In this document: positions 4,392 to 41,311 of the stretch, piece by piece
How positions within the stretch are numbered: the stretch's first letter is position 1
How the letters are laid out: every line of letters begins with the position of its first letter
Assembly (NCBI GenBank): GCA_014381785.1
Contig: JACNKZ010000041.1
Span: 1-44,276, forward strand
Direction: 5' to 3'
DNA: 44,276 nucleotides
DNA from: Kiritimatiellota bacterium
GTDB lineage: Bacteria > Verrucomicrobiota > Kiritimatiellia > Kiritimatiellales > Tichowtungiaceae
Notes under the pieces: model-generated
What the model saw: only the letters and a program-made list of their open reading frames with translations
The model's database searches: none
What the model was told of the DNA's origin: nothing
Program-made: the position numbers and the translations under genes

Positions 4392-4432
4392 GCCCTGTTT
4401 TCCAAATTTTGGAAAACGGGGCTTCTTTTTTT
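4392..4432 (+). terminator. Rho-independent terminator built around the dispersed palindrome
   Basis: A perfect palindrome copy (4400-4414) forms the top of a 15-bp stem. The base is GCCCTG paired with CGGGGC (one G-U), and a U-rich tract TTCTTTTTTTT follows. It lies 25 nt after the porin stop codon. The same CCCCGTTTT-palindrome-AAAACGGGG layout recurs near 27.78 kb and 32.33 kb. Confidence 0.88.
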
Positions 4433-8704: not shown

Positions 8705-9391
8705 ATGTCTAAAACGATCGAGTGGGCACGCCGGATCGCGGCGCTGGCGCAGGCGGGGCTGACCTACACCAAAGATCCCTACGAGAAGGAACGCTGTGAG
8801 GAGTTGCAGGCTCTCGCCGCCGAAATGATGGCCGCCGCCACCGAACAGGCTGAGCCTGCATCCAACCATCTTTCCACGCATCGGAAAACTCTGTGCCCGT
8901 CGCGGCTCGCGACTTCCAACCATTGGAAAAAAATCTTCCAGAATGAATCAGGCTATGCCACCCCGAAAGTCGATGTGCGCGGCGCGATCTTTCAGGACGG
9001 CAAGGTTTTGCTTTCCCGCGAACAGGACGATGACTGCTGGAGCCTGCCCGGCGGCTGGGCGGATGTAAATGACACGCCGTCCGAAGCCGTCATCAGGGAA
9101 GTGCGCGAAGAAACCGGCTATCCGGTTCGGTGCACCAAGCTGGCTGCCGTGCTCGATCGCGATCTGCACTACAAAGAACCCGGGCACGCCCATCCGTTCC
9201 ACATCTACAAACTGCTGTTCCTGTGTGAGCTAACAGGAGATGCCGGCGAGCTGTGCCACGACATCACCGACGCCGCCTTCTTCGACCTGGACGATCTGCC
9301 CCCGCTCTCAAAACACCGCACCCTGCCCAAACACATCGAGCTGTTGCACAAGCACCATCAGAATCCCGGTCTCCCGACCGATTTTGACTAA
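8705..9391 (+). CDS. NUDIX hydrolase with N-terminal helical domain and unusual linker
   Basis: 228 residues. Residues 1-46 match the Nudix_hydro_N helical domain (WARRIAALAQAGLTYTKDPYE). Residues 86-215 form the NUDIX fold: YATPKVDVRGAIF, then LPGGWADVNDTPSEA and REVREETGYP as the Nudix box. In that box the first Glu of GX5E is Asp. It should hydrolyse a nucleoside diphosphate linked to another moiety; the substrate is unknown. The linker at residues 47-80 is longer than relatives I recall, low in conserved character, and contains S-N-H-W-K encoded by a perfect dispersed palindrome (8914-8928). The gene starts 15 nt after the marC-like gene, probably in the same operon. Confidence 0.9.
   Translation: MSKTIEWARRIAALAQAGLTYTKDPYEKERCEELQALAAEMMAAATEQAEPASNHLSTHRKTLCPSRLATSNHWKKIFQNESGYATPKVDVRGAIFQDGKVLLSREQDDDCWSLPGGWADVNDTPSEAVIREVREETGYPVRCTKLAAVLDRDLHYKEPGHAHPFHIYKLLFLCELTGDAGELCHDITDAAFFDLDDLPPLSKHRTLPKHIELLHKHHQNPGLPTDFD
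8914..8928. repeat. Dispersed palindrome, perfect, inside NUDIX gene
   Basis: TTCCAA-CCA-TTGGAA, read in the frame that gives S-N-H-W-K, at the domain linker. Confidence 0.85.
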
Positions 9392-9966: not shown

Positions 9967-10067
9967 TTCATGTGACAAGTCTCGTGCAGATGCAAAGCGT
10001 CAGAAGGTGAAGCCGTAGCGGCCTACCGCGAACCTTCTGCAACGATGCAGATGGGCAGTCTCATGAA
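9967..10067. repeat. Structured palindromic element, copy 1
   Basis: Outer arms TTCATGTGAC (9967-9976) and GTCTCATGAA (10058-10067) pair at 9 of 10 positions. Middle stem CAGAAGGT (10001-10008) pairs with ACCTTCTG (10032-10039). Apical stem GTAG pairs with CTAC. The conserved single-strand-like words GCAGATGCAAAGCG and GCAACGATGCAGATG flank the middle stem. Copies 2 and 3 share the fold. Confidence 0.75.
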
Positions 10068-10088
10068 AAAAGAGTCGACTGCTGTTCA

Positions 10089-10187
10089 CGCGACAAGTTT
10101 CGTGTGGATGTGAGGCGTCAGAAGGTAAAGCTGTAGAAGTCTACTGCGAACCTTCTGCAACAAAGCAGACGCGCGAAAATCGTCGCG
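10089..10187. repeat. Structured palindromic element, copy 2
   Basis: A direct repeat of copy 1 about 20 nt downstream. Outer arms CGCGAC (10089-10094) and GTCGCG (10182-10187) differ from copy 1 but still pair. The middle stem CAGAAGGT/ACCTTCTG (10119-10126, 10150-10157) is identical. Apical stem GTAG/CTAC has a changed loop. Confidence 0.75.
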
Positions 10188-10275
10188 CCTTCGGTGAAAA
10201 TGGGTGAAAATCAATGTGATTAAAAAATTCCGCCTATCTGACGAAGTCAGTACATCAGAAACTTTTCATCCATTT

Positions 10276-11706
10276 TCATGAACACCGTTGAAAGCGGGCG
10301 ACGCTCTCCACGTGGTTGGTCTGGGGGAACATGTCGACCGGCTGGCAGCTGACCAGTTTATACAAACCGTCTTCGCAGAGCATCTGACCGTCGCGCGCCA
10401 GCGAGGCGGGGCCGCAGCTTACGTAGATGACAATCGGCGGTGCGAGCTCGCGCAGCATCTTCACGGCTTTAGGATGCATGCCCGCACGCGGCGGGTCAGT
10501 AATAACCAGATCCGGCAGGCCGAATGCTTCGAGCTCGTCACGAATTTTTCCGAAGTGCATTAGATCCATCTGACGGAAGGTGCAGTTTTCAGCTCCGTGC
10601 TCAATTGCGTTTTTCTGTGCGTCAGCAACGGCGCTTTCAATCCATTCGATGCCGAGAATCTTGCCGCAGTATTTCGCCGCAAACAGTGCAATGGAACCGG
10701 TTCCGCAGAAAAGATCGTACACGGTTTCCGAACCTTGGAAAGCGGCCTGCTTGATGATCTCGTTGTAGAGCACGTCCGCCTGGGCGGTATTGGTCTGGAA
10801 GAAAGAGTTGGGCGAAATCTGATAGCTGTATTTGCCGAGCCGGTCGGTGATGAAGCCTTCGCCGCAGAGCACGTGCTCCTCTTCATTGAAGGCGACCAGA
10901 TTTTTACGGGTGCAGATGCCGTTCACAAAGGTGGTCAGTTTGTCACCGAAAGCGGTTTTCAGTTCAGCCAGCAGTTCGGCCATCAGCTCTGCGTCGTGCG
11001 TTGAGGTGATCAGGTTGACCATCAGCTCACCGGTCGCACCGCCCTGCCGAACAACGAGGTTGCGAAGGAACCCATCGGGCTTAAAGGTGGAATAAATGGA
11101 CAGCTTGCGGTCGCGACAGAAGATGCGGACGGTTTCAACGGCGAGATTCATCTCTTCGGTGGCGATGTCGCAGTGATCGATGTCGATCGCCTTGAAAAAG
11201 CATCCGGGAGCATGAAACCCGAGGGCGAAGTCGAGCGGCTTGTCGAGTTCTTCGGCGGGGATGTCCATTTCATCGGCGGTGAGGTAGCGCTGATCGGTAA
11301 AATCCATATCGATCTTATTGCGATAGCCGAATAAATCTTTGGCGGGGATACACTCCGCGACCTCGGGGCTTTCGAATCCGCCAAGATGTACCAGCGCATC
11401 CAGCACCTGCTTGCGCTTCACGCGCAGCTGTTCGGAGTAGTCGAAGTGCTGCCATTTGCACCCGCCGCAAATGCCGAAGTATTTGCAGCGCGGTTCCGTG
11501 CGGCGGTCGGAAAATTTGACAACCTCGGTGAGGCGCGCCTGCAGAAACTTCTTTTTGATTTTAGTGACTTTCGCGCGAACCGTATCGCCGACCGCAACGG
11601 GGCCTTCCACAAAAACCGTAATGCCGTCCTCGAGCCTTCCCACACAGCGGTTTTTGTCCGCTGTATCAAAAATCTCGACCTCTATGATTTCACCCTTTTT
11701 AGCCAT
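10276..11706 (-). CDS. rlmD: RlmD/TrmA-type RNA (uracil-C5)-methyltransferase
   Basis: 476 residues. A TRAM RNA-binding domain (about 1-62) is followed by an iron-sulfur motif C74-X5-C80-X2-C83, with a further Cys in DIDHCDIA. The SAM-binding Rossmann core shows VYDLFCGTGSIALFAA, then VITDPPRAGMHP and the catalytic-Cys segment IYVSCGPASLARDG. The family methylates C5 of uridine in 23S rRNA (RlmD, U1939; RlmC/RlmCD) or tRNA U54. The Fe-S cluster points to RlmD/RlmC, but the exact target cannot be read from sequence. A palindrome variant (10726-10740) codes for F-Q-G-S-E before the SAM motif. The start is the first ATG; upstream lies a perfect 44-bp palindrome. Confidence 0.88.
   Translation of the reverse strand: MAKKGEIIEVEIFDTADKNRCVGRLEDGITVFVEGPVAVGDTVRAKVTKIKKKFLQARLTEVVKFSDRRTEPRCKYFGICGGCKWQHFDYSEQLRVKRKQVLDALVHLGGFESPEVAECIPAKDLFGYRNKIDMDFTDQRYLTADEMDIPAEELDKPLDFALGFHAPGCFFKAIDIDHCDIATEEMNLAVETVRIFCRDRKLSIYSTFKPDGFLRNLVVRQGGATGELMVNLITSTHDAELMAELLAELKTAFGDKLTTFVNGICTRKNLVAFNEEEHVLCGEGFITDRLGKYSYQISPNSFFQTNTAQADVLYNEIIKQAAFQGSETVYDLFCGTGSIALFAAKYCGKILGIEWIESAVADAQKNAIEHGAENCTFRQMDLMHFGKIRDELEAFGLPDLVITDPPRAGMHPKAVKMLRELAPPIVIYVSCGPASLARDGQMLCEDGLYKLVSCQPVDMFPQTNHVESVARFQRCS
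10726..10740. repeat. Dispersed palindrome variant in rlmD
   Basis: TTCCGA-ACC-TTGGAA, one arm substitution; read on the minus strand as F-Q-G-S-E just ahead of the SAM-binding motif. Confidence 0.55.
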
Positions 11707-24263: not shown

Positions 24264-24371
24264 AATCACGGGCGGAGTTTTGCGTAGATGCAAGAAGCGG
24301 AGAGCGACGCTGTATTGAAATACAGCGAACTCTCCGCGCCGCCGCAGATGCGGGGAAATCCGTCCGTGATT
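24264..24371. repeat. Structured palindromic element, copy 3
   Basis: It shares the fold of the two elements near 10 kb with different stem sequences. Outer arms AATCACGGGCGGA (24264-24276) and TCCGTCCGTGATT (24359-24371) pair at 12 of 13. Middle stem CGGAGAG (24298-24304) pairs with CTCTCCG (24330-24336). Apical stem GCTGTAT pairs with ATACAGC. The words TAGATGCAAGAAGC and GCAGATG are retained. It sits between convergent genes, just reaching the stop codon of the PTS-type gene. Confidence 0.8.
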
Positions 24372-25215
24372 ATTTGACCATTTTGCGGGTGCCCTTGATG
24401 AGGGCCTCCCACAGGTCGGCCTGCGACTTGGCTTTGAGCAGCGGTTCGCGGGATGCGGCCGTTGCAAAGCTCTGGGTGAGATCGGCAAGTAGCTTGAGAT
24501 AGAAGGCACTGGCGGCAGTCGGGATGACCATGTAGAAGAAAATCTTGGTTTTAGTGGGGCCGCCAAAGTCGATGCCTTTTTTGCTAATACCAACCGAAAG
24601 CGTAAGCCCGCCGCCCTCGACACCGCGAATATGCGGGAAGGCCATCGCGCCGCCGACTGCGGTGGAAATGATGGCTTCGCGACGCATGGCGGCTTCGTGT
24701 AAATCGGCACAGTCTTTCACGTAGCCTTCATTGCGCATGTTTTCGCAGAGTTCCATCAACACTTCTTCGTCCGTGGAACCTTTGAGTTTGTGCAGCATCA
24801 GCTCGGGTGCGGTAAACCGCTCAATGCCGCGTTTAATGGGATCGCCCCAGCGGCGGCGCGGGGTGTTGCGGGTAAGCGGCACATCCGGCGCATAAAGGAT
24901 TCGGGTGCAGTTGGGGCAGCGGCTCATTTCAATGGCGCCGCCGTTGATGTTGTTGACCATAGTTTTGGTGAGCGCAAAACCGCAGCCGGAGCAGTTGTCG
25001 CCGGTGATCGGGGCAAGTGCCTCCACGCTTTTCTGAATCAGACGGGTGAAATGACTTTTCAGTTCAGGGGAAAGCTCGTTACTCATGATTTTGATGTTTT
25101 TATCGAGATCAACCAGTTTCTGTTTCGGATGAGCGGCCTGCTGCTGGGCGCGGGCGGCAATCAGATCCTGTAGCTGAATGAGATGCTTAATGAGATGATG
25201 TTCTTTGCGTACCAT
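24370..25215 (-). CDS. Zinc-ribbon protein fused to a PTS EIIA(Fru/Ntr)-type domain
   Basis: 281 residues. Residues 1-70 are helical/coiled coil (HLIKHLIQLQDLI). Residues 75-103 carry a C4 zinc ribbon, CSGCGF and CPNC (Cys75, 78, 100, 103), of the C4-type zf-RING_7 kind. Residues 130-275 resemble an EIIA type-2 domain with the phospho-His segment GGAMAFPHIRGVEGG (His195), followed by LTLSVGISKKGIDFGG and FFYMVIP. EIIA-Ntr-like domains are phosphorylated regulators; joining one to a zinc ribbon suggests a regulatory rather than sugar-uptake role. No EI or HPr gene is nearby. It lies 11 nt after thrH, with AAGGAG 7 nt before ATG. Confidence 0.8.
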   Translation of the reverse strand: MVRKEHHLIKHLIQLQDLIAARAQQQAAHPKQKLVDLDKNIKIMSNELSPELKSHFTRLIQKSVEALAPITGDNCSGCGFALTKTMVNNINGGAIEMSRCPNCTRILYAPDVPLTRNTPRRRWGDPIKRGIERFTAPELMLHKLKGSTDEEVLMELCENMRNEGYVKDCADLHEAAMRREAIISTAVGGAMAFPHIRGVEGGGLTLSVGISKKGIDFGGPTKTKIFFYMVIPTAASAFYLKLLADLTQSFATAASREPLLKAKSQADLWEALIKGTRKMVK

Positions 25216-27740: not shown

Positions 27741-27755
27741 TTCCAAACCTTGGAA
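27741..27755. repeat. Dispersed palindrome, perfect, after helicase gene
   Basis: TTCCAA-ACC-TTGGAA, 8 nt after the stop codon and 17 nt before an identical copy inside the terminator. Confidence 0.85.
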
Positions 27756-40990: not shown

Positions 40991-41311
40991 ATGAGTGTAA
41001 AACAACTGAACGACACAACCTTCACCGAAGCGATCCGGTCCGGCGCCACACTGGTCGATTTCTGGGCGCCGTGGTGCGGACCGTGTCAGATGCAGATTCC
41101 AATCCTTGGAAAAACAGCGGAGGCGGTCGGCGATCGCGCGGTGATTGCCAAACTGAATGTTGACGAAGCCCCCGCAGCGGCCTCACAATACGGAGTGCGC
41201 GGGATTCCGACGTTGATTCTGTTTAAAGACGGCGAAGAGGTCAATCGCTTCGTCGGCGTTCAGCAGGAGAACACGCTGCTCTCCGCCATCGAAGCGACTT
41301 TATCTGAATGA
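40991..41311 (+). CDS. trxA: Thioredoxin
   Basis: 106 residues with the classical active site WCGPC (Cys29, Cys32), a cis-Pro in RGIPTLILFKDGEEV and no signal peptide, so it is cytoplasmic. In this operon it may regenerate persulfide- or disulfide-carrying partners. The residues after the active site, I-P-I-L-G-K, are encoded by a perfect dispersed palindrome (41097-41111) and replace the usual A-P-I-L-E. AAGGAG lies 7 nt before ATG. Confidence 0.94.
   Translation: MSVKQLNDTTFTEAIRSGATLVDFWAPWCGPCQMQIPILGKTAEAVGDRAVIAKLNVDEAPAAASQYGVRGIPTLILFKDGEEVNRFVGVQQENTLLSAIEATLSE
41097..41111. repeat. Dispersed palindrome, perfect, in thioredoxin gene
   Basis: TTCCAA-TCC-TTGGAA, read as I-P-I-L-G-K right after the CGPC helix. 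Confidence 0.85.

Follow-up and report, generated by a model that had tools for sequence, protein, structure and literature searches.

What kind of element forms two structured repeats of about 100 bp side by side at 9967-10187 of the window, by which we mean the whole stretch of 44,276 nucleotides that was analysed, from a 2.2-Mb draft genome? The original prediction, made from the sequence alone, described two tandem copies with shared words and differing but still paired outer arms, placed them between convergent genes, noted a third copy near 24 kb, and proposed selection on a fold, with a REP-like mobile element or an unnamed non-coding RNA as possible identities. Here we report that the hairpins are very probably gene-less MITE copies that were moved as DNA, likely by IS1380 acting in trans, and in which hairpin 1 has been kept for its shape. 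We classify the family as a new structure-conserved MITE superfamily.

The window copies and the intact unit

The two tandem copies (A and B) occupy the positions originally proposed, and the quoted words are correct, as are the differing outer arms, TTCATGTGAC (9967-9976) and GTCTCATGAA (10058-10067) in copy A and CGCGAC (10089-10094) and GTCGCG (10182-10187) in copy B. The two are spaced 118 nt and share 80% identity across 91 nt. The third copy (C) was also located (Table 1), and has orthologous copies in three related genomes. All three form one imperfect hairpin of about 100 nt, with z-scores from predicted folding of -2.6 for copy A and of -3.9 and -9.8 for copies B and C relative to shuffles. 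The described span holds for the hairpins of A and B, but its end at 10187 does not, as copy B continues through a second hairpin to 10283. The entire copy B unit is predicted to fold into a three-way junction (-73.7 kcal/mol, z -6.25), in which 10084-10087 would pair with 10280-10283 as the closing stem and the hairpin 2 arms (10195-10210 and 10263-10278) form an inverted repeat of 16 nt with 94% complementarity. This layout follows the same plan as full-length copies in other genomes, and a homologous counterpart of hairpin 2 is present in loci L018, L019, L020 and L031. Copies A and C are hairpin-1-only members, and copy B a full-length member, of the proposed MITE. Tandem or nested neighbouring copies like those at 9967-10283 can also be seen in other genomes (L203:817-1159), and the A/B pair is therefore not unique.

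Table 1. Positions of the repeat copies and of the genes that they adjoin in the window. R1 is the covariance model described in the text.
Feature	Position	Strand	Description
Copy A	9967..10067	+	Hairpin-1-only; R1 match 9971-10063, 79.7 bits, E 1.4e-17
Copy B, full extent	10084..10283	+	Closing stem GTTC/GAAC, hairpin 1, CCTTCGG linker, hairpin 2
Hairpin 1 of copy B	10089..10187	+	R1 match 109.5 bits, E 9.3e-26
Hairpin 2 of copy B	10195..10278	+	Arms TGAAAATGGGTGAAAA / TTTTCATCCATTTTCA
rlmD-like gene	10276..11706	-	TRAM and tRNA_U5-meth_tr domains; stop codon within right arm of copy B hairpin 2
Copy C	24264..24371	+	Hairpin-1-only; R1 match 24269-24366, 93 bits, E 3.2e-21
PTS-EIIA-domain gene	24370..25215	-	Pfam PF00359; stop codon abuts copy C

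The intact unit is approximately 200-260 bp long and consists of a terminal inverted repeat, hairpin 1 (about 99 nt), a short linker (CCNNNGG, CCCGAAGGG-like), hairpin 2 (about 100 nt, with an AT-rich loop) and the second terminal repeat. The terminal inverted repeats are 13 nt in length and fall into the classes CCTGAATAATTCA, CCCTAATTGAGCG and related sequences. Unit sizes range overall from about 125 to 400 bp, and the terminal repeats are kept in hairpin-1-only units (L266 and L270, about 125 bp), in a hairpin-2-only unit (L298, 150 bp) and in 390-bp copies with extra nested palindromes in genome G055. In the latter (L292:2995-3384, L285 and L289, each about 390 bp), perfect palindromes are nested in hairpin 1 and between the hairpins, an arrangement that looks like palindromes inserted into palindromes. 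No recurrent ORF was found in or beside the copies.

Further copies were found beyond the original three. A covariance model (R1) for which five copies served as input detected 10 copies in the source genome and gave matches in 15 of the 43 genomes searched in the order. Two large genomes in few contigs, G024 and G025, have several copies each. A wider survey, which consisted of a pattern scan of 85k species genomes followed by confirmation with R1, identified carriers among the Desulfobacterales, Desulfatiglandales, Olavius symbionts, Aminicenantes, Kiritimatiellales and Akkermansiaceae, and more weakly among the Polyangia. The element thus recurs in at least four phylum-level groups. Between 16 and 74 copies were present in 12 of the 13 named genomes that were re-searched (Desulfobacterales, Aminicenantes and Akkermansiaceae among them), including two Aminicenantes genomes (74 and 27 copies), four Desulfobacterales or related deltaproteobacterial bins (70, 51, 50 and 47 copies) and an Akkermansiaceae bin (21 copies); such bins may be contaminated, yet in each genome many contigs carry copies whose end classes are lineage-specific. 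The search for plasmid and phage carriage gave no match, and three IMG/VR contigs fit the core pattern but not the covariance model. No part of the window matched Rfam 15 at gathering score (best sub-threshold match 12.5 bits, E 0.98), and a literature search that lay largely outside subscription journals yielded no description of the family or of an IS1380-derived MITE.

Movement as DNA and a candidate mobiliser

The mobility that had been proposed for these repeats is supported by their edges. Both terminal repeats could be recognised in 86 copies (at most 4 mismatches in 13 nt), 20 of which are bordered by perfect direct repeats of 5 bp and 18 by perfect direct repeats of 4 bp. Shuffling of the flanks gave an expectation of 0.65 perfect 5-bp repeats, with a maximum of 5 in 5000 trials, and other direct-repeat lengths gave no signal at the edges of the 86 copies. 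Together, the target duplications and terminal repeats indicate that the element moves as DNA. In the window, the terminal repeats have decayed to TTCA/TGAA or GTTC/GAAC, and no target duplications are left at these old copies. The MITE features that were tested, namely terminal inverted repeats, target duplications, and small size with dispersal and without a transposase gene, were all found.

IS1380-family insertion sequences generate target duplications of 4-5 bp, and a 5-bp duplication was observed at an Alicyclobacillus IS1380 element. In the IS1380-family elements IS1678 and ISSsu5, both ends agree in 13 of 13 nt with the CCTGAATAATTCA ends of Aminicenantes and Kiritimatiellales copies. 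This complete match applies to the TTCA end class, the GAGCG and TGCA classes match IS1380 ends more weakly, and the CCCTAA class has only CC..TAA-type letters in common with known IS1380 ends. Furthermore, the Kiritimatiellales genome G042 carries an intact IS1380 transposase (NF033539, E = 1.9e-89) flanked by CCTGCATCCGTT and its inverted partner CCTGAATCCGTT. Because of the matching ends, the ends of the G042 transposase and the 4-5 bp duplications, mobilisation in trans by IS1380 is the best-supported candidate route, in which a transposase of this family would act on the terminal repeats.

IS1380 transposases searched with Pfam PF13701 gave few matches, and none over threshold in most element-rich genomes, in a search to be read in the light of incomplete genome bins and of a model weaker than the NCBIfam IS1380 model. 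An apparent exclusion of IS1380 on this ground was reversed by the comparison of ends. Hairpin 1 was absent from the six IS1380 elements scanned. An autonomous parent with CCCTAATTGAKCG ends was not found near 40 sites with flanks of about 3 kb in two genomes; in the exact-end search of six genomes, of which these 40 sites were read in two, end-matched sites gave only truncated, hairpin-2-only and nested-palindrome copies. The same-end search of the six genomes found no matched IS for the CCCTAATTGAGCG end class. In genome G049, a remnant of a hairpin 2 right arm and terminal repeat (L314:1240-1295) closely precedes an IS1380 transposase gene that is frameshifted.

The fold of hairpin 1 and its putative role

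Selection on a fold, as originally suggested, receives overwhelming support from covariation. In an alignment of five sequences that was not fitted to the model, 14 of 34 pairs changed on both sides, compared with 5.1 in shuffles. Across 106 copies, both-side changes were seen in all 34 pairs, and 96.2% of pair cells held standard pairs, compared with 70.8% after shuffling and 37-43% with the partners slid. Fitting of the 106-copy alignment to the model biases the per cent paired in its favour, but would hardly produce the ranking of column pairs: in an APC-corrected G-test of 63 sequences with less than 85% identity, model pairs took all of the top 20 places among 4489 column pairs. The unfitted five-sequence alignment agrees with the large one. 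Non-canonical positions are also retained, including a pyrimidine-pyrimidine mismatch in 103 of 106 copies (UC 52, UU 28, CU 23) and a tandem G.A/A.G (G.A in 99 of 105 and A.G in 86 of 106), and conservation across phyla extends to the bulges and loop words. The G.A-rich loops point to the + strand as the one that folds. As judged from these comparisons, the covariation and the conserved non-canonical pairs show that hairpin 1 is under selection for shape, also after insertion at orthologous sites. At the PTS-EIIA site, copy C compared with each of its two aligned orthologues has 6 pairs that changed on both sides and are still paired, versus 3-4 broken pairs, and the most diverged purH comparisons gave 5-7 compensated versus 4-6 broken pairs; about a third of the unpaired columns changed at orthologous sites. 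On the strength of these compensated changes, constraint on the fold seems to continue after insertion.

The setting between convergent genes was correctly described: copy B enters the 3′ end of the minus-strand rlmD, and copy C touches the stop codon of the minus-strand PTS-EIIA-domain gene. Depending on the species within the genus, the rlmD, purH and PTS-EIIA loci have a copy, a half-remnant or no copy. The C-terminus of RlmD reads ...RFQRCS or ...RFELCS in the presence of the element or its remnant, and mostly ...RFERx without it. At 10276-10300 of the window, the protein end CS stands in place of the ancestral end, in the source species and in genome G009. In 8 of the 10 copies in the source genome (L008, L009, L010, L011, L012, L014, L015 and L016), an opposite-strand ORF ends no more than about 12 nt from the 3′ side of hairpin 1. 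When empty sites were reconstructed for mobile copies, a stop codon lay at the target in 12 of 53, compared with 3.7% of random intergenic points. This enrichment is only suggestive, since the ORF calls are crude and mechanical.

In the proposed mechanism, either the transcript or single-stranded DNA after extrusion would adopt the fold, which would allow insertions at the 3′ ends of genes to be tolerated or to be of use, for example by ending or protecting messages. We infer that its most likely role is to act at message 3′ ends or to render insertions harmless; a contribution to transposition itself is the main alternative. A more specific proposal, which we put forward tentatively, is that the fold is recognised by a protein or RNA, is conserved across phyla as a requirement for mobilisation or host tolerance, and has repeatedly been retained by hosts as a 3′-end element at essential-gene stop codons. 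It is also conceivable, albeit rather doubtful, that in the genus of the window the hairpin persists through co-option as the 3′-end element of the abutting gene, serving as a terminator or stabiliser on the opposite strand. The proximity of opposite-strand ORF ends, the stop codons at targets and the compensated changes at orthologous sites are what such co-option would lead one to expect, whereas the G.A-rich loops seem suited to the other strand, the copy has been lost in many orthologues, and the proximity, which relies on mechanical ORF calls, may only mirror tolerated insertion sites. Moreover, no U-tract follows the hairpin on the gene strand, and an intrinsic terminator was ruled out on this basis. 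Scanning the window copies for promoters and terminators returned consensus matches that were all weak and close to the level in shuffles.

The covariation could in principle be a by-product of DNA mutation, in which template switching within quasi-palindromes copies one arm onto the other. The element is indeed a long quasi-palindrome, the arms of L106 and L114 are very long and near-perfect, and the G055 copies have gained nested palindromes. However, template switching would erase mismatches, while the pyrimidine-pyrimidine mismatch, the tandem G.A and a 3x2 loop mostly stay non-canonical and change identity within their class, and bulges and loop words are shared across phyla. These conserved non-canonical positions argue against simple palindrome correction during replication, and we regard this explanation as improbable.

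Strong covariation and G.A-rich internal loops conserved on one strand would equally suit a family of stand-alone non-coding or cis-acting RNA genes that spread by descent and ordinary gene transfer rather than as a transposon, as would the orthologous positions after purH, PTS-EIIA and eno that are conserved in the genus. Such a family seems very unlikely in view of the terminal inverted repeats with their 4-5 bp target duplications, the unrelated loci, sharing no neighbour gene, at which the 16-74 copies of each genome lie, the lack of an Rfam match and the lack of a promoter-like site at the window copies. With respect to the unnamed non-coding RNA first suggested, the transcript or extruded DNA may have a structural role, but a stand-alone RNA is not the simplest reading because the copies transpose as DNA.

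Relation to known elements

With regard to other mobile repeats, the transposing MITE that we favour can be set against several known systems. Y1 enzymes would not be expected to generate target duplications, which the present element has. That the element is a REP/BIME mobilised by a RAYT (Y1 tyrosine transposase) is extremely unlikely, since the intergenic copies, the GTAG...CTAC in the apical stem and the Y1_Tnp genes in 39 of the 43 genomes of the order are outweighed by a unit of about 200-260 bp with a hairpin of about 100 nt, an internal GTAG and no terminal tag (REPs are 20-40 bp with GTAG or CGTC at one end; PMC3733652), by the absence of model matches within about 1.5 kb of 15 Y1 loci and by the absence of a recurrent transposase adjoining the copies. 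Size, end tag and linkage thereby rule out a REP/RAYT origin, and the REP-like identity and RAYT association initially considered were both abandoned: the size is wrong, the REP end tag is missing, duplications of 4-5 bp are present, and neither the 15 Y1 loci nor the copy flanks revealed a linked Y1 transposase. What the two systems have in common is that they are mobile intergenic palindromes that occur in tandem pairs, and they differ in size, end tags, duplications and the linked transposase (PMC3733652). Almost every genome of the order has multiple genes for Y1 transposases, with products of about 335-350 aa. Integron attC sites would be at odds with dispersed single copies that carry target duplications.

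The Correia/NEMIS, ERIC/IRU, RUP and YPAL MITEs are likewise small, gene-less and dispersed, with strongly folded transcripts, terminal inverted repeats and target duplications (PMC2229807). Each of these has been reported from one genus or family, mostly with TA termini, whereas the present element occurs in several phylum-level groups, has 4-5 bp duplications and IS1380-type ends, and has an interior that is a covarying fold with fixed non-canonical pairs (PMC2229807). The CIR repeats of Caulobacter and Brucella also have two long hairpin arms and a linker, but they have no terminal inverted repeats and carry GANTC in a loop, while the hairpins described here are enclosed by terminal repeats (PMC2229807). 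IS1678 and ISSsu5 share with the element the 13-nt CCTGAATAATTCA end identity and the 4-5 bp duplications; unlike IS1380 insertion sequences, it encodes no transposase.

Bacterial MITEs are usually confined to a single genus, and their hairpins are treated as by-products of palindromic ends. The interior covariation across distant phyla and the fixed non-canonical pairs suggest that in this family the fold itself has a function. The family could serve to test why structure occurs in short mobile elements, with a tie to a named transposase family, IS1380. For annotators, it is a repeat family absent from Rfam that has tens of copies in uncultured anaerobes.

We also observed a 15-nt palindrome, TTCCAANNNTTGGAA, which occurs 22 times in the window at no more than 1 mismatch, compared with 0.18 expected (for example at 4400-4414, 8914-8928, 27741-27755 and 41097-41111). 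It adjoins several element copies in the genus as well, and looks like a separate small dispersed repeat.
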